Below, in pieces: positions 6,575-47,100 of a stretch of DNA of 64,000 bases. Under the pieces are notes generated by a model that was not told the origin of the DNA, did no database searches, and saw nothing but the letters and a program-made list of their open reading frames with translations. The stretch lies in NCBI RefSeq assembly GCF_013004105.1, contig NZ_CP053085.1:4402001-4466000 (forward strand), read 5' to 3'. A program made the position numbers and the translations under genes. Every line of letters starts with the position of its first letter. Position 1 is the first letter of the stretch. Origin of the DNA: Gemmatimonas groenlandica. GTDB lineage: Bacteria > Gemmatimonadota > Gemmatimonadetes > Gemmatimonadales > Gemmatimonadaceae.

Positions 6575-8926
6575 CTACCGCGCAGCCCCGGCGACGCGAT
6601 GCTCCGCATCGAGCAAACGACGGACGGTCTGCAATAGGTCGGCCGTAGAAAACGGCTTCGCCAGAAACGGAAGCTGGTACTCGGCGACGTCACGCACCAG
6701 TTCGTCGTCGTCCGGATAACCGCTGATGAAGAGTACTTTCACGAGCGGATATCGCACGGAAATCTCGCGAGCGAGATCGCCACCGGACATCCCGGGCATC
6801 ACCACATCGGTGATCACCAGTTCGTAGGGACGAGTGGCGCTGGCGAGTGCATCGAGTCCCGCCTGTCCGTCTCCGGCGCGTGCAACCACATAGCCGGCGC
6901 GGGCGAGCATGCGCGTGGTGGCCGACGCGACGGCATCGTCGTCTTCGACGAGCAGAATGCGCTCGGCACCGGGCGTCACGGTGGCGGGCGCGATCGCCGC
7001 GGCCGCGATCAAGGGGTCAGAGTCGTTGAACGCCCCGTTCAACGACTCTGACCCCTTGATCGCGTTGATCGCAGCCGGCTCGGCAGTGGCCAGCGGGAAG
7101 TAGATGTGGAAGGTCGTCCCGCGGCCTTCGGTGCTGGCCACATGAATCGCACCGCCCGACTGCTGCACGATGCCGTACGCGAGGGCGAGACCGAGTCCGG
7201 TACCGCGTCCGCGGTCTTTCGTGGTGAAGAACGGCTCGAACATCCGCTCACGGGTGGCTGCGGAGATTCCCGTTCCCGTGTCGGATGCACTGATCTGTAT
7301 GTAGTGACCAGACGGGAGCGTCGGCGTGTGCAGTTCGTGGTCGCCCAGTTCGATCCGCGACGTGGTGATCTGAAAGCGGCCGCCACTGGGCATGGCATCG
7401 CGTGCGTTGGCCGCGAGATTCATGAGCACCTGTTCAACCTGTCCACGATCGGCGCGCATCACACCGAGCTGTGGCCCGAGCGACAACGTCAGCGTGATGG
7501 ACTCACCGAGTAGGCGCGCGATCATGCGCTCGATACCGGTGATGACGTCGTTCGGATCGAGCAACTGCGGCGCCATCGCCTGCTGACGGCTGAAGATCAG
7601 GATCTGCCGCGTGAGCTCGGCGGCGCGCTGCGCCGACGCCAGTACGCCTTCCACGTCATCGCGCACCGGCGAGGCGACGGGAAGATCAGCCAGCGCCATC
7701 TCGCTGTGGCCGATGATCGACGATAGATAGTTGTTGAAGTCGTGGGCGACGCCACCGGCGAATGAACCGAGGGCTTCGAGTTTGTGTGCCTGTCGGAGCT
7801 GCTCCTGCGATGCCGCGAGCTCCGTATTCCGCTCCACGATCGCGTCGGCCATGGTGTTGAACGTCCGGGCCAGGGTGCCGACTTCGTCGTCGCTGGCGAT
7901 GGTCGAGCGGCGTGCCATGTCGCCGGTGGAGATGGCCCGCGCATCTCGCGTGAGCGACTCGATCGGCGACACGAAGCGCGCGACGATCCAGTAGCCGAGC
8001 ACCACGACGGTGAGGCTGAAGAGCAGGCCGAGCAGGACATCCTGCGTGAATTGCGTGCGCGACGGGCCGAAGGCGTACTCGGTCGGGATGCCGACGTACA
8101 CACGCCATGGGATCTGCGTGAGGGTCTGCGCCCCGAAGAGTCGCTCCACGCTGTCGATGGAGCTGGTCACGAACGTTCCCCACGCCAGTGGCACACTCGT
8201 GACCGACGGCCGTGGCTCCTGCGGAAACACCTTGCCGATCCAGGCATCTGCATCGCGCGAGCGAAGGACGATGCGGTCGGCGGAGTCGATCACGGAGAGA
8301 ATCGAGCCAGAGGGTAGCCCGCGGGCAACATGCATGGCTTCAAGTGAGTCGAGGAGCATGCCCGCACCCACCATCGCGCGCACGCGTCCAGACGTCGAAT
8401 CAACGATCGGCGCAATGAACGGGAGAAACCATGGGGTGTTGTCGTAGAGCGTGGTGCGCACTGGCGTACCCACAGTGAACCGCTTCGTTCGGAGCGCCTC
8501 TTGAAAGTAGGCGCGCTCGCCGAGCGCTACGGCAGCACGGCCCGCGGCGGGCAGCTTGGCGGCCCCGATGCTTCGGCCGAGCGAATCGACGAGAAAAATG
8601 TTCGAGTAGCGCACCGGCGTCTCGCGATACAACGCTTGCAACAGCACGTCGTTCCGTTCCGGCGCCGCGCTCAGGTCGACCAGCCGACGGAGGCTGTTCA
8701 GCAGCGTCTCTGCGTCGCGGACGGCCCCATCGAGTGACCGCGCAACGATCGTGGCTGTTTGCTGAGACTGTTCGCTGATCCGACGCTCTTCGGCGGCGCG
8801 TCGCTCGCGGGCGCGCAAGAACGCCAGCACGGTGATTACCGAAGCCACCAGAATGGCGGCGAGCTGGAGCCGACCGCGAATGCTCAGCGGTGAGAACAAC
8901 GGTCGGCCGACTGGGGGAGGAGTCAC
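6575..8926 (-). CDS. Hybrid sensor histidine kinase with C-terminal receiver
   Basis: 783 residues. Order of parts: a TM helix (about 20-37), a periplasmic double-Cache-like sensor (about 40-310), a second TM helix near 320-340, HAMP (to about 395), HisKA with phospho-accepting His in GGVAHDFNNYLSSIIGH, HATPase_c (N box NLAANARDAMP, G boxes DTGTGI and GTGLGLALAYG), and a receiver with the acceptor Asp in VITDVVMPGMSGG. The linker between ATPase and receiver (about residues 621-641) is encoded by a near-perfect 61-bp palindrome that stays in frame. This is a hybrid two-component kinase that would pass phosphate from His to its own Asp and then to an unseen partner. The HDFNN H-box is typical of the HPK4 class. 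Confidence 0.92.
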   Translation of the reverse strand: MTPPPVGRPLFSPLSIRGRLQLAAILVASVITVLAFLRARERRAAEERRISEQSQQTATIVARSLDGAVRDAETLLNSLRRLVDLSAAPERNDVLLQALYRETPVRYSNIFLVDSLGRSIGAAKLPAAGRAAVALGERAYFQEALRTKRFTVGTPVRTTLYDNTPWFLPFIAPIVDSTSGRVRAMVGAGMLLDSLEAMHVARGLPSGSILSVIDSADRIVLRSRDADAWIGKVFPQEPRPSVTSVPLAWGTFVTSSIDSVERLFGAQTLTQIPWRVYVGIPTEYAFGPSRTQFTQDVLLGLLFSLTVVVLGYWIVARFVSPIESLTRDARAISTGDMARRSTIASDDEVGTLARTFNTMADAIVERNTELAASQEQLRQAHKLEALGSFAGGVAHDFNNYLSSIIGHSEMALADLPVASPVRDDVEGVLASAQRAAELTRQILIFSRQQAMAPQLLDPNDVITGIERMIARLLGESITLTLSLGPQLGVMRADRGQVEQVLMNLAANARDAMPSGGRFQITTSRIELGDHELHTPTLPSGHYIQISASDTGTGISAATRERMFEPFFTTKDRGRGTGLGLALAYGIVQQSGGAIHVASTEGRGTTFHIYFPLATAEPAAINAIKGSESLNGAFNDSDPLIAAAAIAPATVTPGAERILLVEDDDAVASATTRMLARAGYVVARAGDGQAGLDALASATRPYELVITDVVMPGMSGGDLAREISVRYPLVKVLFISGYPDDDELVRDVAEYQLPFLAKPFSTADLLQTVRRLLDAEHRVAGAAR
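7004..7064. repeat. Perfect 29-bp palindrome inside a kinase coding region
   Basis: The left arm 7004-7032 (contains CAAGGGGTCAGAGTCGTTGA) and the right arm 7036-7064 are perfect complements with a 3-nt loop CCC. It encodes the hydrophilic linker IKGSESLNGAFNDSDPLIA between the HATPase and receiver domains and keeps the reading frame open. It looks like an inserted REP-like palindromic element tolerated at a domain junction. No transposase lies nearby. Confidence 0.95.
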
Positions 8927-8950: not shown

Positions 8951-8981
8951 GGCCGCTTCAATTAGTTGGCTCAAGGCGGCC
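8951..8981 (-). terminator. Hairpin after the GH18-NodB-GT2-VirJ gene
   Basis: Read on the minus strand, GGCCGCCTT is followed after about 14 nt by AAGCGGCC and then by TCGTTTGCTC. The stem is G/C-rich with one bulged base and includes the stop codon of the upstream gene. A weak T-rich stretch follows. It lies in the 44-bp gap before the kinase gene on the same strand, so it may be a terminator or attenuator. Confidence 0.4.
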
Positions 8982-11900
8982 GGGCGGCCAGGATCTGGTC
9001 GGCGATGGCGCCGTAGTCGCGGTCGAAGTGATGGTCCCCCGGGCGCTCCCTCACGGTGTAGCGATTGGTATCGAGCGAGGGACAGAGAGTACCGGCTTCA
9101 TGTTGACCGTACATGCAGAGCATGGCGGGGTGTCGGATACGATCGAGCTCGGGTCGCGCCGGCAGGTCGGTGGGGCGGCTCACGGAGCGTACGAGGTCGA
9201 TGAGGTGGAACTCGAAGCTCGCCGTCGGCTCCATGCCGAGCATGCCGACCAGCTCAACCCGGGCCTGCAGCTCGACGGGAAGGCGATTGTAGATGAACGG
9301 CGCGAAACCCGCACCGCGCGAGTATCCGAGCAGGAGCACGCGTTCGCGTCCCCACGTGGCGGTGTAGTGCCGGATCAGCGCGGCCGTGGCCACGCTGGCG
9401 TCCTGAGGCGTGCGCGTGCCAGAGGTGAGCCAACTCCGAGAGTTGATGCCGACGACGGCCACCCCACGCTGCGCGAGGTGCCTGGCGGTTTCCGACACCA
9501 GTTCCTGCCATCCGCCGTCGCCGGTCCAGAAGATGGCGAGGGTATTGCCTGAGGTCGCGGGCACCTCGGTGATTGGCAGCGACGCGATGATCTGCTGATC
9601 CGACTTCGCCGACTGCGCCGTGAGCGTGCGCGGCACGATCGAGAGGACACCAGCCGCCACCAGCGCGCCGCCAACTGCCGCCGTGAGAGAGGCGGTGAGC
9701 GTCGCGGCGCTGACCGTGGCTTTGCGCTCGAGCGTGCCCCAGCCGACCAGGCGTCCGCGAAACGCCGCGAGCACCGACCGGAGCACGACCCAGTACATCA
9801 CCTGTCGATAGGCGAATCGCTGCAGGACCACCAGCCAAGCCAGTCGACGGTCCTCGCCGCGCTCCATCAGCAGTGCGAGCATCGCGACGCCGATATCGAC
9901 GACATTGAACACAGCGTAGACCGAGAGCAGATGCTGCAGGTCCGCGCGCCCGTAGGTGGCGCCGTGTGTACGGACGATCATGCCGACCGAGAGGAGGCTG
10001 AACAGGAACAGCAGGTCGGCGAGCGGTGACAGCGCGGTCAGGCACAACTGAAAGACCCAGGTGTTCAGCATCGCGATGGTGCCAAGCGTGCCGTATCGCG
10101 GACGTAAGAGAGTGTCCCGATGCTTCCAGGCGCACTGCAGTGTGCCGAAGCACCAACGGAAACGCTGGCGGGCCAGTAAGCGCAGTGTGTCGGGCGCTTC
10201 GGTCCAGGCGATTGCATCGTCGGCAAAGGCAATGCGCCAGCCACGACGCCGCAGTGCGATCGTGAGGTCCTGATCCTCGGCCAGCGTATCCTCCGAAAAG
10301 CCGCCGGCATCGCGCACTGCAGTCGCCCTCCAGGCGCCGACCGCGCCGGGCACCACGGTAATGGCGTTCAAGGCGGCAAACGCGCGCCGCTCGAGATTCT
10401 GGCTCGTGATGTACTCGATGGCCTGCCAGCGCGTCACGAGGTTGATCCGGTTGCCGACCTTCGCATTCCCGGCCACTGCGCCGACGCGCACGTCGGCCAA
10501 CGGTGCCACCAGTCGTGCAATGGTGTCGGGCTCGAACACGGTGTCGGCGTCGAGACCCACGAGGATCTCTCCGCGGGCGCGGGTCATGCCATGATTGAGG
10601 GCGGACGCTTTGCCGCCGTTGCGCTTGGTGAGCACCAGCACGCGCTCGTCGCCGGCGAAGGTGTTGCGTGTCAGTGCATAGGTGTCGTCGAGTGACCCGT
10701 CGTCGATGACAATCACGTCGAGCAGGCCATCGTATCGTTGCGCCAGTAGGCTGCGCACGGTTTCCACCACGACGGCCTGCTCGTTGTGGGCCGGGACGAG
10801 CACGGACACCGACGGCGAGAATGACGGTGCGTATGGCGTCGCGTCTACGGCGAGTCGCCGTGCGTCCATCGTCGCATGCTTCGGCGCGAACCGTTCGCGC
10901 AGCGCGAGGAGGCAGATCAGTAGCAGGCGCGCGACGCCCAGCGTCACGGCGACTGTGAACAGCGCGCCGATGCACCATTCGACGCTACCCACCACCGCGT
11001 AGCCGGTGAACGCGATCCAACGCCGGCGGGCGGCGTCGGGCGTGAGCGGTGGCATCATCACGCTTGCCGGTGCATCGACCAAGGCGCCGATGCTGCCGAT
11101 GGTATCACCGCGGGCCCGCAGCGAATCGATCAGCGGACCGATCGCCGCGACGGTCTGCGCGCGGTCGCCACCGCCATCATGCAGCAGGATGACGTTGCCG
11201 CGCGACCGCTGCGCCAGCGTGCGCGCGACGATGGCGGCTACGCCCGGCCGTCGCCAGTCGTCGCTGTCGATATGCACCCCCGTGGTGAGGTAGCCGAGCG
11301 AGGTCGCGATCTCCACCGGAGCCAGTTCGTCGATCGTGGTCGGTTCGGCATCGCCGAAGTACGGAGGGCGGAACAGCAGACTGCGACGACCGACGACGGC
11401 TTCCAGGAGCCGTGCGGTGGCATCGAGTTCGAGGCGGGTGCCGAACGGCGAGACGCGCGAGAGATCGGGGTGCGAGAACGTGTGCGATCCGATCTCATGA
11501 CCCTCGGCCGCAATGCGCCGCGTGATTGCCAGATGAGACTGCACCTGATCACCGATCACGAAGAACGCGGCGGTGGCGTGCCGCGAGCGCAGCGTGTCGA
11601 GGATGGCCGGCGTCCAGTCTCCGTCGGGTCCATCGTCGAACGTGAGGGCCACCCGGTGGGGATGGGCGGCGCCGGTCCGCTCAACGGTCCACGGCTGCGG
11701 CATGGACAGCGTGCGGACATCTGTGATCAGCCCCGACAGGCTGTCGTGCGTGAGCGCGCGCGTCCCGGCCGTGGGATGCGACGTGACGCGCAGCAGCTCC
11801 CCGTCGCCCTGCATGTCGACGCCATAGCCCGGCGGCTGTACGCCGAGCTCCTCCCACGCCTCCTGATGCACATGCTTTCCGAAGACGCGCCAGATCGCGG

Positions 11901-13119
11901 GATCTTCGGCCCCGAGTCGCCACAAGGCCGCGCCGGCGGCGCCGAGCGACGTGGTCCGCTGCATCGCGTTCCAATTCGTCGTGGCATCGAGATACCAGAG
12001 CACGTGATCGGTGGAATCGGCGTCGGTCCAACTGATCACCGGCTCCAGTGCCTGTCGATCCCACTGTGGCCGCACGCCATGGTGTCTCGCGGCCGCCAGC
12101 GCCTCCGCGTACGTGACCGCCTCGGCGGGCTGCGCTGGCACGGCATCGTTCCAGGCGTAACCGAACGCGCCGAACGCCAGCATGACCTTCGCCGCTGGCA
12201 CCAGTGTTAGCACGCGCTCCGCGGTGGCGGTGAACCACGGCTGGCTGGCGACCGGCCCCGGATCGTCGCGGTCACTGTGCTCGTCGTACAGCATCGCGAT
12301 CACGACATCGGCATCGGCGCCGTATTGACGCAGGGTCGTCGCGTCGGCGTCCGCTGCTGCAGTGACGGCGACCACCGCGCCGGTGCGATGCAGGCGGGCG
12401 CGCAACGCGCGCAGCAGTGCACCAATCGCCGGTGTCTCACGTGACGGCACCAGCTCAAGATCGAGCACGATGCCGCCGAGGTGGTTCGTATCCACGAAGG
12501 CCACCGCGTCGTTCACGAAGCGCGTGCGCGCCGCGGCGTCGTGCAGCAGGTGTGAGACACGCTGCCCTGAGAAGGCGCGTCCCCCACTGTCGACGTTGGT
12601 GATCATGGCGAGCACGCGCGGTTGCTGCGCCGCTGGTAGGCGGCGCACCAGCGGGAGCACGCGTGGGTCGGTACGCCATTGCAGCGCCAGATCATTGGTG
12701 CGGAGAAAGCCCCATTCGGTGATCACCCAATCGAGGTCGCCTGCGTGATGGGAGAGCGACTGGTAGGCATCGTCGTCCCAATTCACGAAGAACGCGGCGC
12801 GCAGCGGTGTCGCGCGGGCGGTGGATTTCAGCAGCGCGGTCGCGACGTCGCGTCGAGTGCCCGTCGCCGCATCGGTGCGACTGAGGCGACTGAACAGGCG
12901 ACGCCGCGCCCGCGCATCGACCGCGTGGGGTTTGACCAGCGCTCGCGGTGCGACCCAGCCGGGTAAGAGCGGCGGCGCCAGAATCCCCACCAATAGATAG
13001 CCAACGAGCAGCGTGGTGACGACGCCACTGAGGGCGATGACGCCGCGTACGCGACGCCAGCGACGTCCCGTTGGATCGAGGAAGACCGGGCGACGGACGG
13101 TAGTATCGAGTCTGGACAT
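8971..13119 (-). CDS. Membrane-bound GH18-like / NodB deacetylase / GT2 / VirJ fusion protein
   Basis: 1382 residues. After a TM helix (about 27-50) comes a GH18-like hydrolase domain (about 105-420; LGGIVLDLEL holds the catalytic D-x-E). A polysaccharide deacetylase follows (about 488-680; metal Asp in ALTFDDGPDG, HTFSHPD, and FRPPYFGD). After a TM segment near 705-742 there is a family 2 glycosyltransferase (about 770-1000; LVPAHNE, GLDADT, AEDQD, QRFRW), then more TM helices. The end (about 1175-1382) is a VirJ/AcvB-type alpha/beta hydrolase (GYSRGAGF with nucleophile Ser about 1267, and PGDHHFD). The first three parts resemble fused PgaB/PgaC poly-GlcNAc enzymes. VirJ/AcvB domains hydrolyse lysyl-phosphatidylglycerol in Agrobacterium. 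Divergent mprF makes that role plausible here; the fusion itself is unusual. Confidence 0.88.
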   Translation of the reverse strand: MSRLDTTVRRPVFLDPTGRRWRRVRGVIALSGVVTTLLVGYLLVGILAPPLLPGWVAPRALVKPHAVDARARRRLFSRLSRTDAATGTRRDVATALLKSTARATPLRAAFFVNWDDDAYQSLSHHAGDLDWVITEWGFLRTNDLALQWRTDPRVLPLVRRLPAAQQPRVLAMITNVDSGGRAFSGQRVSHLLHDAAARTRFVNDAVAFVDTNHLGGIVLDLELVPSRETPAIGALLRALRARLHRTGAVVAVTAAADADATTLRQYGADADVVIAMLYDEHSDRDDPGPVASQPWFTATAERVLTLVPAAKVMLAFGAFGYAWNDAVPAQPAEAVTYAEALAAARHHGVRPQWDRQALEPVISWTDADSTDHVLWYLDATTNWNAMQRTTSLGAAGAALWRLGAEDPAIWRVFGKHVHQEAWEELGVQPPGYGVDMQGDGELLRVTSHPTAGTRALTHDSLSGLITDVRTLSMPQPWTVERTGAAHPHRVALTFDDGPDGDWTPAILDTLRSRHATAAFFVIGDQVQSHLAITRRIAAEGHEIGSHTFSHPDLSRVSPFGTRLELDATARLLEAVVGRRSLLFRPPYFGDAEPTTIDELAPVEIATSLGYLTTGVHIDSDDWRRPGVAAIVARTLAQRSRGNVILLHDGGGDRAQTVAAIGPLIDSLRARGDTIGSIGALVDAPASVMMPPLTPDAARRRWIAFTGYAVVGSVEWCIGALFTVAVTLGVARLLLICLLALRERFAPKHATMDARRLAVDATPYAPSFSPSVSVLVPAHNEQAVVVETVRSLLAQRYDGLLDVIVIDDGSLDDTYALTRNTFAGDERVLVLTKRNGGKASALNHGMTRARGEILVGLDADTVFEPDTIARLVAPLADVRVGAVAGNAKVGNRINLVTRWQAIEYITSQNLERRAFAALNAITVVPGAVGAWRATAVRDAGGFSEDTLAEDQDLTIALRRRGWRIAFADDAIAWTEAPDTLRLLARQRFRWCFGTLQCAWKHRDTLLRPRYGTLGTIAMLNTWVFQLCLTALSPLADLLFLFSLLSVGMIVRTHGATYGRADLQHLLSVYAVFNVVDIGVAMLALLMERGEDRRLAWLVVLQRFAYRQVMYWVVLRSVLAAFRGRLVGWGTLERKATVSAATLTASLTAAVGGALVAAGVLSIVPRTLTAQSAKSDQQIIASLPITEVPATSGNTLAIFWTGDGGWQELVSETARHLAQRGVAVVGINSRSWLTSGTRTPQDASVATAALIRHYTATWGRERVLLLGYSRGAGFAPFIYNRLPVELQARVELVGMLGMEPTASFEFHLIDLVRSVSRPTDLPARPELDRIRHPAMLCMYGQHEAGTLCPSLDTNRYTVRERPGDHHFDRDYGAIADQILAARPP

Positions 13120-13216
13120 GTGTGTATGGAAACCGCCGGATACTGACGCCAGGATAACGCGCCAGCGTGCGCGACCTGTTATCTGCAGTTCAGGCAGCCG
13201 CTTTCAGCTTTCGCGC
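13120..13216. promoter_or_regulatory. Divergent promoter region between the fusion gene and mprF
   Basis: This 97-bp gap separates the start codons of the GH18-NodB-GT2-VirJ fusion (leftward, 13119) and mprF (rightward, 13217). Both promoters must lie here or just inside the genes, so shared control of the two is likely. I do not recognise definite -10/-35 boxes. Confidence 0.4.
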
Positions 13217-15877
13217 ATGTCGATCACTCCTGCTGCGATGCGTCCTTCGTCTTCTCGCGGATGGCTCGCGCCATCGGTCATGCTGCTGTTGCTGGTGGCG
13301 TCGATCGTCATGCTGCACCGCGAACTCGCCGGTGTGGGTACCCTGCGCATCCGCGAGTCGCTGACGGCGATCCCGTCGTCAGCGCTTCTACTCGCCGTCG
13401 GGCTGACCGTGTTGGCCTATCTGCTGCTGAGCGGATACGACCTCTTGGCGTTGCGTTACGTCGATGCGGGGATCGGTCTCACACGAACGGTTCTCACGTC
13501 ATTGATCGCATACGCGCTCAGTCAAACACTCGGCTTCCCGTTATTCACCGGCGGTGCCGTGCGCGTGCGCTACTGGAGCATGTGGGGACTGTCCGGGCCC
13601 GAGATCGCGCGCGCCACGAGTTTCGTGAGTGCGACATTCGCCGTGGGTGTGGCCGCGGTGTGCGGGTTGGCGCTGTTGTTGGAGCCGACGCCCTTGCTGG
13701 CGCTCTGGCACGTACCGGCGCTCCCCGCTCGCGCGGTCGGCGCGCTCCTGTTGCTGAGCGTGATCGGCTATGCGCTCTGGACTGTGGAACGGGGAGGTGG
13801 CGTGCTCTCGTGGCGTCGCTGGGATATTCCCATTCCCCCGCCGACACTCGCGCTCGCGCAGATTGCGCTCGGTCTGCTCGACTGGAGCGTGGCCGGCCTG
13901 GTCGCCTATGTGCTGCTGCCCGCTGGGCACGCACTTACGCCGCTGGCCTTTCTGGGCGTGTTCGCCCTGGCGCAGTTCGTCGGGGTGATGAGTCACGTTC
14001 CCGGCGGGATCGGTGTGTTCGAAACCGTGATGCTGCTGGCGCTTCGCGGAAGCGCACCGCCGGCGCAGTTGCTGGGCGCGCTCCTCGCCTATCGCGCGAT
14101 CTACTATCTGTTGCCGTTTGCGGCGGGACTGCTCACACTCACGGCGATCGAGATGTACCAATATCGATCGCGCGTGCCCGCATTCGTGGGCGCCGCAACG
14201 ACATCGGCCACAGCGGCCCTTGGTCTCGCGCAGCGGGTAGCCATCGTGCTGCAGCCATTGCTGCCGAGTACGATCGCCATCAGCACGTTCATCGGCGGTG
14301 CACTGCTGTTGTTCTCCGGCGCCACTCCGGCAGCGCACGGACGGGTGCACGCGCTCACGGCGGTCCTGCCGCTCGGACTCGTCGAGCTCAGTCACTTTGC
14401 CGGGAGTCTCGCCGGCGTCGGGCTGCTGGTGCTCGCCGCTGCGCTGCGGCGACGTCTCGATGCGGCATGGGGGGCGACGGTGGTGCTGCTGAGCCTGGGC
14501 ATCGCGGCGTCGCTGCTCAAGGGTCTCGATTGGGAGGAGGCCTCAGTGCTCGCGGTGGTGCTCGTGGCGGTGGTGATGTCGCGGCGGGCGTTCTACCGTC
14601 CGACGACCCTCACCGCCGACGTGCTCACACCGGGATGGATGATCGCAGTGATCGGCGTCGTCACGACCAGCGTGTGGCTGGGGATGCTGACGTATCGACA
14701 CGTCGACTACTCGCACGCCATGTGGTGGGAGTTTGCGGCACACGGCAACGCGCCACGCTTTCTACGCGCGAGCGCCGGCGCGATCGTGGCGGTGTTCGCG
14801 GCCGGCCTCTGGTTGCTGTTCCGTCCGGCCGCACTCGAGCCGGTGCTGCCCTCGGCCGACGAGCTGTCACGGGCGGAGGCGATCATCCATCGCGTACCGG
14901 AATCCACGCCGGCGCTCGCCTTGCTCGGCGACAAGGCACTGCTCTTCAGCGATCGCGGCGATGCGTTCGTGATGTACGGCGTGTCCGGTCGCAGCTGGAT
15001 CGCCATGGGAGATCCGGTGGGTGTACCGGCACGGTTTCCCGACGTGGCATGGCGATTTAAGGAGGAAGCGGACGCGCATGGTGCGATCCCGGTGTTCTAT
15101 CAGGTGACGCCGAGTCGGCTGCCGCTCTACGTCGATCTGGGCATGACGCTGCTCAAGCTGGGCGAGGAAGCGGTGGTGCCACTCGACACGTTTTCGGTGG
15201 ACGGCGCAGACCATCGCTGGATGCGGCGTGTGCTGAAGGAAAGCGAGAAGCACCAGCTATGCTTCGAGATCGTACCACCCGACCAGGTGCCGGCGCTTTT
15301 ACCCGTGCTACGCGCGATTTCTGATGCGTGGCTGCGCGGGAAGACCACGCGCGAGAAGGGATTCTCGCTCGGGCGCTTCGACGACGCGTATCTGCGACAC
15401 TTTCCCATGGCGCTGGTCCATGCGCCGAGCGCGAACGGCGCGCCAGGTTCGCAGATCGTGGCGTTCGCCAACCTCTGGGCCGGTCAGGACGGTGGTGAGC
15501 TGTCGCCCGACTTGATGCGCCGTTCCGCCGACGCGCCGAAGGGCACGATGGACTTCCTGTTCGTGCAGCTGATGCTGTGGGGCAAGGCGCATGGGTACCG
15601 CTCGTGCAACATCGGCATGGCGCCGCTGGCCGGCCTGCGCGACACGGCGTTGGCACGGCCGGAGTTGGCGCCACTCTGGGCCCGCGCCGGCGCGTTTCTG
15701 TATGGCCGCGGCGATTCGTTCTACAACTTCCAGGGGCTGCGCGCCTTCAAGGAGAAGTTCTCGCCGGTCTGGGAGCCGCGCTATCTCGCGTCGCCGGGTG
15801 GGATTGCATTGCCGCGCGTGCTGACGAACGTGGCGTCACTGATTGCCGGCGGCGTCGGTGGAATCGTACGGAAATAG
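13217..15877 (+). CDS. mprF: Bifunctional lysylphosphatidylglycerol flippase/synthetase MprF
   Basis: 886 residues, about the usual MprF length. The N-terminal half is highly hydrophobic (flippase domain, UPF0104 type) and includes the conserved FVGVMSHVPGGIGVFE segment; further TM helices continue to about residue 545. The C-terminal DUF2156 domain starts near ESTPALALLGDKALLFS and contains RSWIAMGDPVG, MRRVLKESEK, KGFSLGRFDDAYL, GTMDFLFVQLMLWGKAHGY and the final FKEKFSPVWEPRYL. MprF transfers Lys from Lys-tRNA to phosphatidylglycerol and flips the product outward, lowering surface charge and giving resistance to cationic peptides. It is divergent from the fusion carrying a VirJ/AcvB lipase domain and ends at a terminator hairpin. 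Confidence 0.93.
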   Translation: MSITPAAMRPSSSRGWLAPSVMLLLLVASIVMLHRELAGVGTLRIRESLTAIPSSALLLAVGLTVLAYLLLSGYDLLALRYVDAGIGLTRTVLTSLIAYALSQTLGFPLFTGGAVRVRYWSMWGLSGPEIARATSFVSATFAVGVAAVCGLALLLEPTPLLALWHVPALPARAVGALLLLSVIGYALWTVERGGGVLSWRRWDIPIPPPTLALAQIALGLLDWSVAGLVAYVLLPAGHALTPLAFLGVFALAQFVGVMSHVPGGIGVFETVMLLALRGSAPPAQLLGALLAYRAIYYLLPFAAGLLTLTAIEMYQYRSRVPAFVGAATTSATAALGLAQRVAIVLQPLLPSTIAISTFIGGALLLFSGATPAAHGRVHALTAVLPLGLVELSHFAGSLAGVGLLVLAAALRRRLDAAWGATVVLLSLGIAASLLKGLDWEEASVLAVVLVAVVMSRRAFYRPTTLTADVLTPGWMIAVIGVVTTSVWLGMLTYRHVDYSHAMWWEFAAHGNAPRFLRASAGAIVAVFAAGLWLLFRPAALEPVLPSADELSRAEAIIHRVPESTPALALLGDKALLFSDRGDAFVMYGVSGRSWIAMGDPVGVPARFPDVAWRFKEEADAHGAIPVFYQVTPSRLPLYVDLGMTLLKLGEEAVVPLDTFSVDGADHRWMRRVLKESEKHQLCFEIVPPDQVPALLPVLRAISDAWLRGKTTREKGFSLGRFDDAYLRHFPMALVHAPSANGAPGSQIVAFANLWAGQDGGELSPDLMRRSADAPKGTMDFLFVQLMLWGKAHGYRSCNIGMAPLAGLRDTALARPELAPLWARAGAFLYGRGDSFYNFQGLRAFKEKFSPVWEPRYLASPGGIALPRVLTNVASLIAGGVGGIVRK

Positions 15878-16172: not shown

Positions 16173-16288
16173 GGTGTCTCCTTGTGCAGTAGCCTCTCCA
16201 TGTCGGTCCCCAGCCAACCGGCCGGGCACCCCCGGAGGGAGCGACGGTAAGTTGGCATTGGCTACCTGAACGCTACCTAACGGCGCCC

Positions 16289-16336: not shown

Positions 16337-17035
16337 ATGCGGATTCTGCTCGCGGAAGACGATCCACGGCTGAACGACCTCCTCGCCCGCGCGTTGCGGG
16401 AGCGCGCCTATGCCGTGGACGTCGTGACCGACGGCGAGTCGGCGTTGATCGAAGCGGCGGTGAACGAGTACGATGCGATCGTGCTCGACGTGATGCTCCC
16501 GCGGCGTACCGGCCTCGAGGTGTGTGCCGAACTGCGGCGTCGTGGCCGGCAAACGCCGATCCTCATGCTGACCGCGCGCGACGCGCTACGCGATCGGGTC
16601 GCAGGACTGGACAGCGGCGCCGACGACTACGTCGTGAAGCCGTTCGAACTCGATGAGCTCCTGGCACGGTTGCGCGCGATCATGCGCCGCGGGCCGGCGC
16701 TGCAGGATGAACAGATCGTGGTCGGCGACCTCGTGGTCGATACACGTGCGCAGCAGGCATCGCGGGCCGGCGTGCCGCTGGGCCTGACCACCCGGGAGTA
16801 CGCGCTGCTGGAATATCTGGCGCGACATGCCGGACGCGTGGTGGGTCGTGCCGAGCTCACGGAGCACGTGTGGGACGCCAACCACGATCCGATGTCGAAC
16901 GCCCTCGAGGTGTACATCGGACGCGTGCGCAAGAAACTCGAGGCGCCGAATCCGGTGGGCATGCTGCACACCCGCCGCGGTTCCGGCTATCTGCTCAGCG
17001 ACGTGACGGACGACGGACGCGCCGCCGCCACATGA
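16337..17035 (+). CDS. OmpR-family response regulator
   Basis: 232 residues. The receiver (1-115) has acidic pocket EDD near residue 8, phospho-acceptor Asp in VLDVMLPRRTG (about 51), Thr in MLTARD and Lys in VVKPFEL. A winged-helix Trans_reg_C DNA-binding domain follows (about 130-222) with LTTREYALLEYLARHAGRVV and the recognition helix NALEVYIGRVRKKL, ending in TRRGSGYLL. Its stop overlaps the start of the downstream kinase gene by 4 bp (ATGA), so the pair is translationally coupled. The input signal is unknown. Confidence 0.93.
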   Translation: MRILLAEDDPRLNDLLARALRERAYAVDVVTDGESALIEAAVNEYDAIVLDVMLPRRTGLEVCAELRRRGRQTPILMLTARDALRDRVAGLDSGADDYVVKPFELDELLARLRAIMRRGPALQDEQIVVGDLVVDTRAQQASRAGVPLGLTTREYALLEYLARHAGRVVGRAELTEHVWDANHDPMSNALEVYIGRVRKKLEAPNPVGMLHTRRGSGYLLSDVTDDGRAAAT

Positions 17036-18546
17036 AGCGAGCCGTCGGGCCTCCCTGGACGCTATCGATTCGGGCGCGCCTAACGCTGTGGTATACCGCG
17101 GCGCTGGCCGTGCTGCTGGTGGTAATGACGCTCGCCACGTACGGTATGCTCACGCGTACCACGCAAGCCGACGCCGACGGATATCTCACGGAAGCCGCCG
17201 ATGAAGTCGCGGCGTCGCTCCAGTTGGCGCTGTCTACGGTGCCGCGCACGATCGCGAGCGACACGGCGGCGGCACGGTGGGCCGCCGGACGGACACTCGA
17301 TAATCATCGCTTTCGCGACATCGGCGTGGCCCTGTTCAGAGCACGCACTGCGACTCCCGACGACGCCAGCCGACTCCTCCTGCTAGCGGTCGACACCACG
17401 TCGACGGCGACCCGCGAATTCGGCGGCGCGGCCGGCTGGTTGCTGGCCAGCAAGTCGCCCACACGTGCCCTCACGTTAATGGACACCGATGTGACGACCC
17501 TCGGTCCGCACCGCGAGCGGGTGGTCTCGATGCCGGTCACCACCCGTCGCGGCACCTTCGTCGTGGCACTCAGTCAGTCGACCGAGCGGCACGAGGCCAC
17601 GTTGCAGCGCGTGCGCGAGGCCATGTACATCGGCGTGCCGCTGGCGCTGCTGCTTGCCATGCTGGGGGGCCTGCTTCTGGCTGCGGCGAGTCTGCGGCCA
17701 GTCGAGGCCATGCGCCTGACGGCTGAACGCATCGGGGCGCGTACGCTGCACGAACGGTTGCCGGTCTCGCCGGCCGCCGACGAGCTCTCTCGATTATCGC
17801 AGACCTTCAATGCGCTGCTGGATCGCGTGGAGGACGCCTTCGAGCAGCGCCGGCGCTTCATCGCCGATGCCTCGCACGAGCTGCGCACACCCGTGTCGAT
17901 CGTCATCGGCGAGAGCGAACTGGCCCTCACCACCGATCGTTCGCCCGACGCGTATCGAACGGCGCTTGGCGTCATTCACGGCGAGGCTCGCCGGCTTGCG
18001 CTCATCGTGGGCGACCTGTTCCTGTTGGCGCGCAGCGACGCCGCCGAACAGACGCTCGTACCGACCAACCTCTTCCTCGAAGAACTGGTGGGCGATTGTA
18101 TCGACGCCATGGGCACCATCGCCTTGGCCAAGCAGATCACGCTGTGCTTCTCACCCGAGAGTGAAGTGCCGTACACGGGCGACGAGGCCATGCTGCGGCG
18201 CGTGGTGGTGAACCTGCTCGACAACGCTATCAAGTACACACCGTCCGGTGGGACGGTCACGGCGCAGGCCGAGCCGCAGTCGGGCGGCGGTGCGGTGATC
18301 CGGGTGAGCGATAGCGGAGCCGGCATCGCGCCCGAGCACCAGATGCGCATCTTCGAGCGCTTCTACCGCGTCCAACACACGACGCCCCGCACCGGGTTGC
18401 CTGATGCAACTGGTGCGGGGCTCGGATTGCCGATCGCCGCGTGGGTGGCGAAGGCGCATGGTGGCTCCCTCGTGCTCGCACACAGCGATGCACAAGGAAG
18501 TGTGTTCGAACTGCGCTTACCGCCCTACCGGTTGCAGCTCGGGTAG
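17032..18546 (+). CDS. Two-component sensor histidine kinase, EnvZ/CusS type
   Basis: 504 residues. TM1 (about 18-38) and TM2 (about 200-220) bracket a roughly 160-residue periplasmic region without a recognised sensor fold. HAMP follows (LRPVEAMRLTAERIG), then HisKA with the active His in FIADASHELRTPVSIVIGE, and HATPase_c with N box RRVVVNLLDNAIKYTP, DSGAGI, and GAGLGLPIAAW. It phosphorylates the upstream OmpR-type regulator, with which it overlaps (ATGA). The 3' end overlaps by 22 bp the 3' end of the convergent M28 peptidase gene, so the two transcripts are complementary at their ends. Confidence 0.93.
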   Translation: MKRAVGPPWTLSIRARLTLWYTAALAVLLVVMTLATYGMLTRTTQADADGYLTEAADEVAASLQLALSTVPRTIASDTAAARWAAGRTLDNHRFRDIGVALFRARTATPDDASRLLLLAVDTTSTATREFGGAAGWLLASKSPTRALTLMDTDVTTLGPHRERVVSMPVTTRRGTFVVALSQSTERHEATLQRVREAMYIGVPLALLLAMLGGLLLAAASLRPVEAMRLTAERIGARTLHERLPVSPAADELSRLSQTFNALLDRVEDAFEQRRRFIADASHELRTPVSIVIGESELALTTDRSPDAYRTALGVIHGEARRLALIVGDLFLLARSDAAEQTLVPTNLFLEELVGDCIDAMGTIALAKQITLCFSPESEVPYTGDEAMLRRVVVNLLDNAIKYTPSGGTVTAQAEPQSGGGAVIRVSDSGAGIAPEHQMRIFERFYRVQHTTPRTGLPDATGAGLGLPIAAWVAKAHGGSLVLAHSDAQGSVFELRLPPYRLQLG

Positions 18547-20408: not shown

Positions 20409-20521
20409 CCTTGGTCGGGTGAAGCGGTGAGCCGGGCGCGAAGCTGAATGCCGAGCGATCCCCAACAATACGCCGCATATTGCTCGGGCGTTCACCTGTC
20501 TCCCGCCGACCCCGCTGCCTT

Positions 20522-23521
20522 ATGCGCGTCCGTCCCTTCCGTATGCTCGTTCCGGCCCTGCTGTGGGCCCTTCCCGCCGCCCTGTCCGCCCAGGCGGCGC
20601 CGTTAGCGTCGGCGGATCTCGGTGCGCTCCGCCTGCGCAATATCGGTCCCGCCTCCATGAGCGGCCGCGTGGTCGACATGGATGTCGTCGAGTCGAACCC
20701 GAGCATCTGGTATGTGGCGGGTGCCACCGGCGGGCTCTGGCGCACCAACGACAACGGCGTGACGTGGAGCTCCACCTTCGACGCGCCGGTGCACTCGATT
20801 GGCGACGTGGCCGTGTTTCAGCCCAACCCGCAGATCATCTGGGTGGGCACCGGCGAACGCGCCAGTCGGCAGAGTGTGGGATGGGGCGACGGCGTGTACA
20901 AGAGCACCGACGGCGGCGTGTCGTGGCAGAATATGGGATTGGCCACCAGCATGCACATCGGCCGCATTCAACTGCACCCGCGCGATCCGAACATCGCGTA
21001 CGTGGCAGCGCAGGGATCGGTCTGGGGCGCCGGCGGCGATCGCGGGCTCTTTCGTACGACCGACGGCGGACGCAGCTGGACGCGCACGCTGTTCGTGGAC
21101 GACGAGACGGGGGCCACCGACGTCGCGATGGACTGGAACGATCCGAATGTGCTCTACGCGAGTACGTATCAGCGTCGTCGCAGCGCGTACGGATTTGATG
21201 GCGGTGGTCCCGGCAGCGCGCTCTGGAAGAGCACCGACGCCGGCGTGACGTGGACCAAGATCACGGGACACGGCTTGCCCGAGGGCGAGTACGGCCGCAT
21301 CGGCATCGGCGTATATCGCAAGAATCCGAAGATCCTCACCGTGAGTATCGAGCAGGGCGCGCGCTACAACGCGAGCACGGCGTACATCGTGCGCAAGGCA
21401 GGCGTATACCGCAGCGAAGACGCCGGCGCCACGTGGACGTTCATGAGCGACTGGAATCCGCGTCCGATGTATGCGAGTCAGGTGATCATCGACCCGAACG
21501 ACGACCAGCGCATCTACATGCTGAACGCGTATTCGTTCAGCGACAACGGCGGCAAGACGTTCACCGCGCCGCGCACCACCACGCATGGCGACGACCGCTT
21601 TGTGTGGGTGAATCCGAACAACAGCCGTCACGTGGTGAAGCTGGACGACGGCGGTATCGGCATCAGCTACGATCGCGGCAACAAGTTCCTGTACGTCACG
21701 TCGCTCCCGCTGTCGCAGTTCTATCGCGTGACGACCGACAATGCGGTGCCGTTCAACATCTACGGCGGCCTGCAGGACAACGGCTGCTGGATGGGACCGA
21801 GCGCCAGCTGGACGACGGGTGGCGTGCTGAACGATCACTTCTCGCGCCTCTGCGGCGGCGACGGCTTTCACGTGACGCCCAATCCGCTCAATTCGCGCAC
21901 CGTGTACTCGGCCTCGCAGTTCCTGGGGCTGCAGCGCAACGACACGAAGACGTGGGAAGTGCAGGACATTCGCCCGGGCGATTCCACCGGACACATCGCT
22001 GGTCGTCGCAACTGGGAAACGTGGGGCAAGCCGGGCGCCGAACAGGTGCTCGGCAACGCGATGCATCCGGCCAACTGGGATGCGCCGTTCATCATCTCGC
22101 CGCACGACACGGCCACGGTCTACGCCGGCGGGCAGCATCTGTTCAAGTCGGTGAACAGCGGACGCACCTGGAAGGACCTGGGTGACATGAGCACGGGCGT
22201 CGATCGTTCGCGGTTGCCGCTGATGGGCCGCCTGCCGGGCGAGAATACGTTGTCGCTCGACGACGGCGTGCCGTACTTCCCTGGCGTGACGGCGTTGGCC
22301 GAGTCGCCGCGCGTGAAGGGCCTGTTGTACGTCGGCACCGATGACGGTCGCTTCCGCGTGTCGCGCGACGGCGGCGCGACGTTCACGGATGTGCAGAGCC
22401 GTTTCCCGGGCCTGCCGAAGGACTCGTGGTTTGCCGGCGTGGAAGCGTCGCGACATGCCGCAGGCACAGCGTATGTGGTAGTCGACAACCATCGCAGCAA
22501 CGACTTCACGAACTACGTCTACGCCACGAGCGACTTCGGCGCCACCTGGCGCCGTATCGACGCCGGACTGCCGGCCAATCGGGTCACGCGCACGGTACGT
22601 GAGGATCCGCGCAACCCGACGCTGCTCTATCTCGCCACCGAGTTCGGGGTCTTCATCTCGCCCGATGCCGGCGGCCAGTGGCTGACGCTGCGCAACAACA
22701 TGCCGATGATGCCGTTCAACGACATCACGATTCAGGCGCGCGACAACACGCTGGTGTTGGGTTCACACGCGCGCGGCTTGTGGATTCTCGACCAGCTGAA
22801 CGCGCTGCAGGAGCTTACCCCTGCGGTGGCGGCCAGCAGCGCGCATCTGTTCACGATGCAGCCGGCGATGCAGATCCGCACCACGAATCTTCGTCCGCAC
22901 ACGGGCGACATGATCTTCCGCGGCGAGAACCCGGCCAACGGCGCATTGATCGACTACTGGGTGCGCGACGCGGGAACCGCAGTGACGCTCACGGTGCTCG
23001 ACAGCGCCGGTCGCACGGTACAAACGCTCACGCCCACGAGCCGTCGCGGTGTGAATCGCGTGGTGTGGAATCTGCGCTATGCCGACCTGCCGATCCGAAG
23101 TGGAGGCGGCGAAGACGATGACGCCGGCCCGAGTCCGACGTCGCCGGGCCCGCTGGTGCTGCCAGGTACGTACACGGTGCGACTGTCGTACGGCGCGACG
23201 GCACAGCAGCAGCGCGTGGTGGTGAAGGACGACCCGCGCATTACCGTGTCGCGCGCCGAACGTGCGGCGTGGACGGCGTTCCATCGCGAGATCGGCGCGC
23301 TGATCACGTCATTCGTGCCGGTCGCCGAACGGTGGCGCGCGCAGCCCGGCACCGATGCGGCGACGCGCGACGGTAAGCGTCAGGCCGCCGAGTTGAGTGC
23401 GCGCCTGTCGGGGCTGTATGGGGCTGTGGCGCGCTACACCGGTGCGCCCACGTCGGATCAGCGGTCGGAGCTGCGCTTCTACACGCGCATGGCGGCGGAG
23501 CTGGAGAAGGCGGGACGGTGA
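20522..23521 (+). CDS. Secreted VPS10/sortilin-like BNR-repeat protein
   Basis: 999 residues from ATG 20522; the signal peptide ends PAALSAQ. The body is a long beta-propeller made of BNR/Asp-box repeats, for example TGGLWRTNDNGVTW, DGVYKSTDGGVSW, DRGLFRTTDGGRSW and KSVNSGRTWKDLG. A C-terminal region with YWVRDAGTAVTLTVLDSAG and LVLPGTYTVRLSY looks like Ig-like sandwich folds. Proteins of this layout are often annotated as glycosyl hydrolases, but no sialidase catalytic residues were identified, so binding or scaffolding is as likely. A paralogue lies at 44143-47358. A strong terminator follows. Confidence 0.85.
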   Translation: MRVRPFRMLVPALLWALPAALSAQAAPLASADLGALRLRNIGPASMSGRVVDMDVVESNPSIWYVAGATGGLWRTNDNGVTWSSTFDAPVHSIGDVAVFQPNPQIIWVGTGERASRQSVGWGDGVYKSTDGGVSWQNMGLATSMHIGRIQLHPRDPNIAYVAAQGSVWGAGGDRGLFRTTDGGRSWTRTLFVDDETGATDVAMDWNDPNVLYASTYQRRRSAYGFDGGGPGSALWKSTDAGVTWTKITGHGLPEGEYGRIGIGVYRKNPKILTVSIEQGARYNASTAYIVRKAGVYRSEDAGATWTFMSDWNPRPMYASQVIIDPNDDQRIYMLNAYSFSDNGGKTFTAPRTTTHGDDRFVWVNPNNSRHVVKLDDGGIGISYDRGNKFLYVTSLPLSQFYRVTTDNAVPFNIYGGLQDNGCWMGPSASWTTGGVLNDHFSRLCGGDGFHVTPNPLNSRTVYSASQFLGLQRNDTKTWEVQDIRPGDSTGHIAGRRNWETWGKPGAEQVLGNAMHPANWDAPFIISPHDTATVYAGGQHLFKSVNSGRTWKDLGDMSTGVDRSRLPLMGRLPGENTLSLDDGVPYFPGVTALAESPRVKGLLYVGTDDGRFRVSRDGGATFTDVQSRFPGLPKDSWFAGVEASRHAAGTAYVVVDNHRSNDFTNYVYATSDFGATWRRIDAGLPANRVTRTVREDPRNPTLLYLATEFGVFISPDAGGQWLTLRNNMPMMPFNDITIQARDNTLVLGSHARGLWILDQLNALQELTPAVAASSAHLFTMQPAMQIRTTNLRPHTGDMIFRGENPANGALIDYWVRDAGTAVTLTVLDSAGRTVQTLTPTSRRGVNRVVWNLRYADLPIRSGGGEDDDAGPSPTSPGPLVLPGTYTVRLSYGATAQQQRVVVKDDPRITVSRAERAAWTAFHREIGALITSFVPVAERWRAQPGTDAATRDGKRQAAELSARLSGLYGAVARYTGAPTSDQRSELRFYTRMAAELEKAGR

Positions 23522-44142: not shown

Positions 44143-47100
44143 ATGTCCCGAATTCGTTCCCTTTCCTGGTTGGCTGGAAGCGTGCTCATGGGTGCCCAGA
44201 CGCTGGGAGCTCAGGCGCTCGATTCCGCCGCCGTTGCCGGTATGCGCTGGCGTACGGTTGGCCCCGCCAACTTCATGGGCCGCATGTCCGACGTGGTCGG
44301 TATTCCCGGCCCCTCCAAAACTCTTTTCGCCGCGGCGGCCGGTGGTGGTATCTGGAAGACCACCAACAACGGCACCACGTGGCGCCCGGTATTCGACGAC
44401 AAGCGCGTGATTTCGATGGGCATGCTCGCCATCGCGCCGTCGGATACCCAGCAGGTCTGGGCCGGCACGGGTGAGCCGAACTCTCGTAACTCGATCGAGC
44501 CGGGCGGCGGCATCTTCAAGTCCACCGACGGCGGCGTGACCTGGTCGGCCAAGGGACTCGAGAAGACCGAGCACATCGGCCGCATCGCCGTGCACCCGAG
44601 CAACCCGAACGTCGTGTTCGTGGCCGCCCTCGGCGCCGCGTGGCGTTCCAACCCGGAGCGTGGTCTGTACAAGACCACCGACGGCGGCACGTCGTGGCAG
44701 CTCGTGAAGTTCGTGAGCGACAAGGCCGGCATGATCGATGTCGCGATCAACCCGAAGGATCCGAACGTCGTGTTCGCCACCAGCTGGGAGCGGCGTCGCA
44801 CGCCATACTCGCTGTTCAGCGGCGGTCCCGGTTCGGCGCTCTGGAAGAGCACCGATGGCGGCACCACCTGGGCCGAAGTGAAGGGCGGCGGATTCCCCGC
44901 CGGTCAGAAGGGGCGCATGACCATCGACATCAACGCAGCAAACCCGAGCGTGATGTACATGATGATCGAAGCGGCCGCCAACGCGACCGGCCCGATCGTC
45001 GGTGAGCGCAGCCCGAAGAACAACGGGCTCTGGAAGAGCACCGATGGCGGCGCCACGTGGACGCAGATGAACAACTACAACGTGCGTCCGTTCTACTACT
45101 CGCAGGTGCGCAGCGATCCGAAGAATCCGGACCGCGTGTACTTCTCGAGCACCGACCTGCAGCTGTCGGAAGACGGCGGCAAGACGAACCGCACCACGGC
45201 CAATGGCGTGCATATCGATACGCACGGCATCTGGATCGACCCGACCGATCCGGAGCGCTGGGCCGTAGCGAACGACGGCGGCATCGCCATCACGTTCGAT
45301 AAGGGCGGCAACTTCGTGCAGGGACAGAACATTCCCGTCGCGCAGTTCTACGAAGTGGCCTACGACATGGCCGTGCCGTACAACATCTGCGGCGGCGCGC
45401 AGGACAACGGCACCTGGTGTGGCCCGAGCAAGCGTCGCACGCCTACCACGAGCCTCGGTTACTGGTTCACGATCGCCGGCGGCGACGGCTTCTACGCCGC
45501 GATGGACCCGACCGATCCGAACGTCGTGTACGGCGAGTCGCAGGGCGGCAATGTGTCGCGCGTGAACCTGAAGAGCGGTGAGCGCGTGGCCTTCGCCAAG
45601 CCCACCTGGCAGGCGCGCTACAAGCAGTGGGAAGATTCGATCGCGACCATTCGTGGTAACCCGCTGGCGGCGGCCACCAAGGCGCAGAACACGGCGATCG
45701 CGGCACTTCGCGGGCAGCAGGTGAAGGATTCCAGCGAGCTCACGATCCGCTACAACTGGAACGCGCCGTTCTTCATCTCGCCGCACAATCCGTCGGTGAT
45801 CTACTTCGCCGGCAACAAGGTGCTGAAGTCGACGAAGCGTGGTGAAGATCTGCGCATCATCTCGCCCGACCTCTCGAAGAACCTCACCGCCAAGCTCGAC
45901 ACCGCGTTGCGTCTCACGGGCGGTATCACGCTCGACGCGACCGGCGCCGAGACCTACGGCACGATCGTGGCGCTCGAAGAGAGCCCGGCCAAGCCCGGCC
46001 TGCTCTACGCCGGCACCGACGACGGCAACGTGTGGAAGTCGTCGAACGACGGCGCCACGTGGGAGAATCTGTCGTCGCGCATTCAGGGACTGCCGAACGG
46101 CGGCGAAGTGTACGTCACACGGATCGAAGCGTCGAAGTTCGACACCAACGTCGTGTACGTGGCGTTCGACAATCACCGCTGGGGGGATTTCCGCCCGCAT
46201 CTGTTCATGTCGAAGGACGGTGGCAAGTCGTTCTCGTCGATCGTGAACAACCTGCCCACCGGCGGCCCGGGTGACTTCCTGCACGTCGTGCGTGAAGATC
46301 CCATCAATCGCGACCTGTTGTACGTGGGCACGTCCATCGGCGTGTACGCGTCGATCGATCGCGGCGCCACCTGGTCGCGCTTCATGGCGAATCTGCCCAG
46401 CGTGCCGGTGTACGACCTGCAGATTCATCCGCGTGACCGCGAGCTGATCGCCGCCACGCATGGTCGCGGCTTCTGGATCGTGGACGTGGCCCCGCTGCAG
46501 GAGATGACGGCGGCCGTCGCGGCCAAGCCGGTGCATCTGTTCACGCCGAAGACCGGCTTCCAGTGGGGCGAGGAACCGCTGCGCGGCGCGAGCGGCAACG
46601 GCAACGCGCAGAATTTCTTCGTGACGCAGAACCCGGCCTACGGCGCCTCGATCTCGTATCGCATCACGACGCCGGGCTCCACGTCGGCGCGCATCAGCAT
46701 CGTGGACGCCGGCGGTGACACGCTCACCACGCTCACCGGCCCGGGCGCACCCGGTTTGCACACGGTCACGTGGGCGTATGCCATCACGCCGCGCCCGGCC
46801 GGTCGCGCACCGCTGTCGGCCAGCGAGAAGCGTGATAGCATCCTGCGCGCGGTGCGTGCCCCGCAGGTGCTCGATTCGCTCACCAAGGCCAAGTACGACA
46901 GCGCGGCGATCGCGCAGGCGCGTGCCCTGATCAATCCGCCGGGACTCGGCAACGTGCCGTTCGGCGGCCGCGGTGGTGGTGGTGGTGGTGGACGTGGCGG
47001 TGCCGGTAGCTGCGAGCGTCCGCTCACGCAGTGGGAACCGTTCTGCGCCCGTCCGGCGGAAGCGGCGCCGCCGCGTGCCGGCGCCGCGCAGGCACCGGTC

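Follow-up and report, generated by a model that had tools for sequence, protein, structure and literature searches.

A GH18-NodB-GT2-VirJ fusion encoded divergently from mprF in Gemmatimonas groenlandica: a candidate envelope-charge module

Proteins that join GH18, NodB and GT2 domains in one chain, a type we take to be the GH18_trifunctional entry of CDD (cd06549), occur in Gemmatimonadota, Acidobacteriota, Sphingomonadales and Myxococcales and on one Deinococcus plasmid. The AcvB and VirJ proteins of Agrobacterium hydrolyze lysyl-phosphatidylglycerol (lysyl-PG) in the periplasm; Ser336 and His433 of AcvB are catalytic, Asp271, Asp340 and Asp370 recognize lysine, and AcvB uses its catalytic domain to bind LpiA (PMC13197417, PMC13135905). 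Here we describe a gene in 64,000 nucleotides of the Gemmatimonas groenlandica genome (NZ_CP053085.1, positions 4,402,001 to 4,466,000; this whole stretch is called the window) that joins GH18, NodB, GT2 and VirJ domains and is transcribed divergently from mprF. We consider it fairly probable that the locus is a co-regulated envelope-charge module, in which a polysaccharide enzyme is joined to a periplasmic aminoacyl-PG hydrolase and controlled together with MprF.

A preliminary description of the window, made from the letters alone, read the gene as a four-domain fusion, and this reading held. One uninterrupted open reading frame (ORF) of 1382 codons carries matches above the Pfam gathering cut-offs to Glyco_hydro_18 (PF00704, residues 179-404, 49.7 bits), Polysacc_deac_1 (PF01522, residues 485-595, 102.3 bits), Glyco_tranf_2_3 (PF13641, residues 769-992, 119.4 bits) and VirJ (PF06057, residues 1193-1378, 153.7 bits against a gathering score of 22). 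The VirJ match is the only one in this single-contig genome. The first 1136 residues have the order and motifs of the three-domain proteins, from which the fusion differs by a VirJ domain added after an apparently retained signal peptide. The D, D, ED and QxxRW motifs of GT2 are intact, and the earlier caution in writing "GH18-like" was apt, as DxxDxDxE is degraded to GxxVxDxE with the final Asp and Glu retained. With PgaC/IcaA and PgaB the protein shares a processive GT2, a CE4 deacetylase and a GH18-like domain, but these lie in a single chain rather than in separate proteins. The GT2 domain scores 179 bits with the PgaC/IcaA poly-beta-1,6-N-acetylglucosamine (poly-GlcNAc) synthase model TIGR03937, under the equivalog cut-off of 422.3 bits; the label of poly-GlcNAc synthase was dropped on this score, and the "poly-GlcNAc type" synthesis first proposed is not established.

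The VirJ domain, aligned and modeled separately from GT2, matched the AcvB crystal sequence 9XHM with E 1e-26. An AlphaFold model of the domain alone has an alpha/beta hydrolase fold (predicted local distance difference test, pLDDT, 87), and the Foldseek matches to the model include Brucella VirJ domain 1. GYSRG and GDHHFD, both named in the preliminary description, are found at residues 1265-1269 and 1361-1366 and offer Ser1267 and either His1363 or His1364 as catalytic candidates. In contrast to AcvB, the domain is the C-terminal part of a four-domain membrane protein and comes without AcvB's N-terminal domain.

The same chain was present in related genomes. In a survey of the genus, VirJ shared an open frame with the other three domains in three of 30 genomes (that of the window, G001 and G011; frames of 1379-1410 amino acids), and a fourth fusion was found in another genus, in a Gemmatimonadaceae metagenome-assembled genome (G336; locus L065, JAIETI010000109.1). 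Sampling the family more densely (179 genomes) gave no additional VirJ frame with the four-domain architecture, and the fusions total four among the 394 genomes sampled from the class. The three other proteins are 63-67% identical to that of the window, and the NodB motifs, GT2 D/D/ED/QxxRW, GH18 DxE and VirJ Ser/His are intact in the fusions. The preliminary description had raised a frameshift artefact, and a sequencing or assembly error joining two genes would indeed produce such a frame, but because the chain recurs in G001, G011 and G336, and is thus intact in four independently assembled genomes, of which the window genome and G001 are single-contig, this explanation has a negligible probability and was ruled out. 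The suspicion that related genomes might lack any GT2-VirJ fusion falls with the same observation. A tree of the NodB-GT2 region unites the four fused proteins in a single clade with support 100, adjoining MprF-linked or unlinked relatives from Gemmatimonadota. The four-domain fusion thus originated once and was then retained through divergence to about 63% identity.

The divergent neighbor of the fused gene encodes MprF/LpiA, a bifunctional aminoacyl-PG synthase and flippase (NF033480, 872 bits against an equivalog cut-off of 600). PDB chains of LpiA/MprF also match, and the closest catalytic-domain chains include both Lys and Ala kinds. The partner is thus the one known for AcvB and VirJ of Agrobacterium, but there the hydrolase gene is co-directional with lpiA/mprF. 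Across the 394 genomes of the class, with VirJ presence called at E ~1e-20 or better, 47 had VirJ and MprF, two had VirJ only and 27 had MprF only (Fisher p 5e-39, shared ancestry ignored). The divergent MprF and this tracking strengthen the link to membrane-lipid charge suggested in the preliminary description, which had mentioned neither MprF nor the unfused clusters and shared regulatory site described below.

Of 70 GH18-NodB-GT2 loci, 14 had MprF at a distance of no more than 8 kb, and VirJ was nearby as well in 13 of the 14. Unfused clusters of all three genes were seen in Gemmatimonadota (L045, L051, L063, L066, L080 and L105) and in Sphingomonadales, where the order is MprF-VirJ-GH18/NodB/GT2 in Novosphingobium (L101) and GH18/NodB/GT2-VirJ-MprF in Sphingomonas (L102). 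Since such clusters exist in both groups, the functional link is older and wider than the fusion. MprF was also seen without an adjacent full VirJ (L134 in G029 and L133 in G018); the G018 mprF directly follows an unfused GH18-NodB-GT2 gene with 66% identity to that of the window, which runs into it.

The preliminary description called the VirJ/AcvB domain a lipase; the family consists of aminoacyl-phosphatidylglycerol esterases (PMC13197417, PMC13135905), and two of the three lysine-recognition Asp residues are missing here. In the alignment, the equivalents of AcvB Ser336, His433 and Asp271 are conserved, the hydrophobic pair of the AcvB membrane loop is retained as L-V or L-I, and the Ser269 position holds Thr in the window and Ser in the three other fusions. 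The Asp340 position is Gly in the fusions, and the Asp370 position is Ser in the window and Ser or Asn across the fusions. The domain is therefore expected, from its sequence, to be an aminoacyl-PG hydrolase. Because Asp340 and Asp370 are replaced, alanyl-PG or another neutral aminoacyl-PG seems a likelier substrate than lysyl-PG, and lysine specificity is doubtful. The PA0919-type alanyl-PG hydrolases of Pseudomonas, a maker of alanyl-PG, also have Ser or Thr at position 370 but conserve Asp340 (PMC13197417), where the fused VirJ has Gly.

Gly at position 340 occurs in nearly all VirJ proteins linked to GH18-NodB-GT2 and is rare otherwise (exceptions, L014 and L045), a distribution due partly to shared ancestry, and VirJ adjoining MprF alone mostly retains Asp. 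Gly340 may mark a changed aminoacyl specificity. The distribution could also be read to mean that VirJ works not on lipid but on the polysaccharide, nascent or deacetylated, for instance by removing ester groups, as could its fusion to, and clustering with, a polysaccharide synthase. We regard this as improbable, given that VirJ tracks MprF far more tightly than it does the polysaccharide gene (present in 47 and 27, respectively, of the 49 VirJ-bearing genomes), that the best structural relative, AcvB, acts on lipid, and that the membrane-loop pair is kept.

How the VirJ domain might reach an aminoacyl-PG substrate is suggested by the joint. Unfused GT2 proteins terminate at "...LERKATV" and a few more residues, and the fusions add a hydrophobic stretch, "AQ" and then VirJ. 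"AQ" follows the hydrophobic core in all four fusion joints and in 21 of 35 standalone VirJ proteins, compared with 3.3% of random stretches, and the joint appears to be a signal peptide kept from a formerly separate VirJ. Besides TM1 and TM2 (Table 1), hydropathy gives two transmembrane segments (TM) in GT2, TM3 (1025-1043) and TM4 (1067-1085), and one of 19 residues in the joint (1144-1162); with the N-terminus inside, the count places GH18, NodB and VirJ outside and GT2 inside. Because the retained signal peptide comes after a GT2 C-terminus predicted to be cytoplasmic in the unfused proteins, VirJ should face the periplasm.

The joint may persist as an anchor, or signal peptidase may cleave it between the LTA and the Q of LTAQ. 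In the latter case, the single ORF would serve co-expression only, as a polyprotein from which soluble periplasmic VirJ is freed, and therefore the two activities would not operate as one molecule. A precedent for such a polyprotein would be FbcH, the Bradyrhizobium precursor of cytochrome b/c1. We see the chances of such cleavage as evenly balanced: the joint resembles a VirJ signal peptide, follows a GT2 end that is cytoplasmic by prediction, and is poorly conserved (14-36% identity, compared with 50-82% in NodB, GT2, GH18 and VirJ, and 74-80% in GT2 itself), but an internal hydrophobic segment can stay as an anchor, and in the window this stretch is long, at 19 residues. The "one polypeptide" of the preliminary description may last only until signal peptidase acts. 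Separate internal translation of VirJ was also considered and rejected, as the joint has no ATG and its GTG and TTG codons, at chance level, make no case for a start.

Standalone VirJ genes lie head-to-head with mprF in G008 (L042) and G019 (L043); the G008 locus also shares synteny with the window in its flanking genes and in the regulator and kinase downstream. The simplest account of the origin is that GH18-NodB-GT2 became positioned between mprF and virJ and read through into VirJ; alternatively, GH18-NodB-GT2 may have been lost in G008 and G019. The fused gene falls in the MprF-linked subset and not with a second, unlinked GH18-NodB-GT2 paralogue (~45% identity) that is common in the genus; the window genome has the fused copy only. 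Plasmid matches, among those listed, were only to unfused GH18-NodB-GT2, extending to about residue 1133 and all below 60% identity. Another standalone VirJ of G019 (L044) is nested inside the fused VirJ clade and is likely a later separation or a copy. This gene (9125-10039 of L044) has a lipobox-like LAAC signal and adjoins a regulator gene with no MprF between.

That nesting, by which the join may be reversible, and the restriction of the fusion to four of the 394 class genomes, all in one clade, would suit a neutral gene-joining accident in one lineage, with coupling no greater than for the unfused genes. We think this unlikely, though a serious contender, as the chain has been kept down to ~63% identity in two genera and its catalytic motifs are all intact.

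The fused gene and mprF share a 97 bp promoter region, in which we noted an inverted pair of CTGAM-N7-TAAC sites. Within the 64-kb window the motif matches three times, only in the two promoters belonging to the locus (0 of 100 shuffles reach three), a count that is not a blind test since the motif was picked by eye from these very promoters. The corresponding divergent promoters of G001, G011, G008, G019 and G336 have paired or single sites, and inverted pairs beyond the window were found at L002/L043, L041, L042 and L046. The motif also precedes the regulator gene in G001, G011, G008 and G336 and is present at the second VirJ locus of G019, the MprF contig of which shows no regulator. It is absent from 124 of 138 other loci compared. 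CTGAM-N7-TAAC is a putative direct site for the adjacent OmpR-type regulator. Loci with the motif beyond the window comprise L040, L041, L042, L043, L044 and L046.

Table 1. Features of the fused gene, its divergent neighbor and the adjacent two-component system (window coordinates).
Feature	Position	Strand	Basis
Fused gene GH18-NodB-GT2-VirJ, 1382 amino acids	8971..13119	-	single ORF, Pfam domains, homologous fusions
TM1, residues 28-46, N-terminus inside	12982..13038	-	hydropathy and positive-inside count
GH18 domain, residues ~105-425, predicted periplasmic, DxE retained	11845..12807	-	PF00704 and motif
NodB/CE4 deacetylase domain, residues 485-681, five catalytic motifs intact	11077..11667	-	PF01522 and motifs
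TM2, residues 720-738, out to in	10906..10962	-	hydropathy; helix in structure model
GT2 processive synthase domain, residues ~769-1130, including TM3 and TM4	9730..10815	-	PF13641, motifs, TMs
Joint, residues 1137-1182, apparent retained VirJ signal peptide; hydrophobic 1144-1162, then LTA/Q	9574..9711	-	
VirJ/AcvB-type alpha/beta hydrolase domain, residues 1183-1382	8974..9573	-	PF06057, AcvB 9XHM, structure model
Divergent promoter region common to fused gene and mprF, 97 bp	13120..13216		
CTGAM-N7-TAAC site 1, putative response-regulator site	13143..13158	+	
CTGAM-N7-TAAC site 2, inverted relative to site 1	13178..13193	-	
MprF/LpiA bifunctional aminoacyl-PG synthase and flippase, divergent to fused gene	13217..15877	+	ATG 13217 inferred
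CTGAM-N7-TAAC site 3, upstream of response-regulator gene	16266..16281	+	
OmpR-family response regulator, syntenic in relatives	16337..17035	+	PF00072 and PF00486
Sensor histidine kinase; open frame extends upstream of the true start	16870..18546	+	HAMP, HisKA, HATPase_c; synteny

Two further kinds of gene were noted in the window. The fused gene is followed after 44 bp, on the same strand, by one for a hybrid sensor kinase with a receiver domain (6575-8926, minus strand); in G008 (L042), the homologue closest to this kinase is situated elsewhere. Two large Sortilin/VPS10-like BNR-repeat proteins are encoded at 20480-23521 and 44143-47358, both on the plus strand.

In the mechanism we propose, GT2 would polymerize an N-acetyl-hexosamine polymer in the cytoplasm and export it, NodB would de-N-acetylate it outside to give a cationic polymer, and the GH18 domain would trim or cleave it. 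VirJ, brought to the periplasm by the signal peptide kept at the joint, would hydrolyze the aminoacyl-PG made and flipped by the divergent MprF, reversing lipid aminoacylation. Both genes are probably under the control of the adjacent OmpR-type two-component system, acting at the CTGAM-N7-TAAC sites, so that polymer charge and lipid charge would be set jointly under envelope stress.

Several points weigh against this proposal. With the equivalents of Asp340 and Asp370 missing, the VirJ domain may hydrolyze lysyl-PG poorly or act on another substrate, and a GT2 score below the PgaC cut-off leaves the identity of the polymer as poly-GlcNAc unsupported. The topology rests on hydropathy, and the joint has a pLDDT below 50 in a larger GT2-VirJ structure model. 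The genome counts ignore shared ancestry, and 56 of the 70 GH18-NodB-GT2 loci are not near MprF; the two pathways are therefore separable. The conserved chain with its intact motifs and single-clade origin, the MprF link and the CTGAM-N7-TAAC sites were observed here; the substrates, topology, regulator binding and physiological role are what we infer. The fullest form of the proposal is a hitherto undescribed module that couples the making and deacetylating of a cationic amino-sugar polymer with PG de-aminoacylation, both physically and at the level of transcription, through one chain, one divergent promoter shared with MprF and one two-component regulator, with a VirJ subtype of altered aminoacyl specificity and possible release of VirJ by signal peptidase; this form is advanced tentatively, as possible but somewhat doubtful.

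All component domains belong to known families; the fusion and the recurrent MprF cluster appear undescribed, as a search of open papers, a body that excludes most subscription journals, turned up neither of them, nor the shared putative control site. Lipid aminoacylation and polysaccharide deacetylation are both recognized routes to a more positive bacterial surface, and we know of no direct connection between them. The fusion, the cluster recurring in two phyla and the shared putative site make such a connection testable in cultivable Gemmatimonadota, and the changes at Asp340 and Asp370 provide a handle on the amino acid recognized by these lipid hydrolases.

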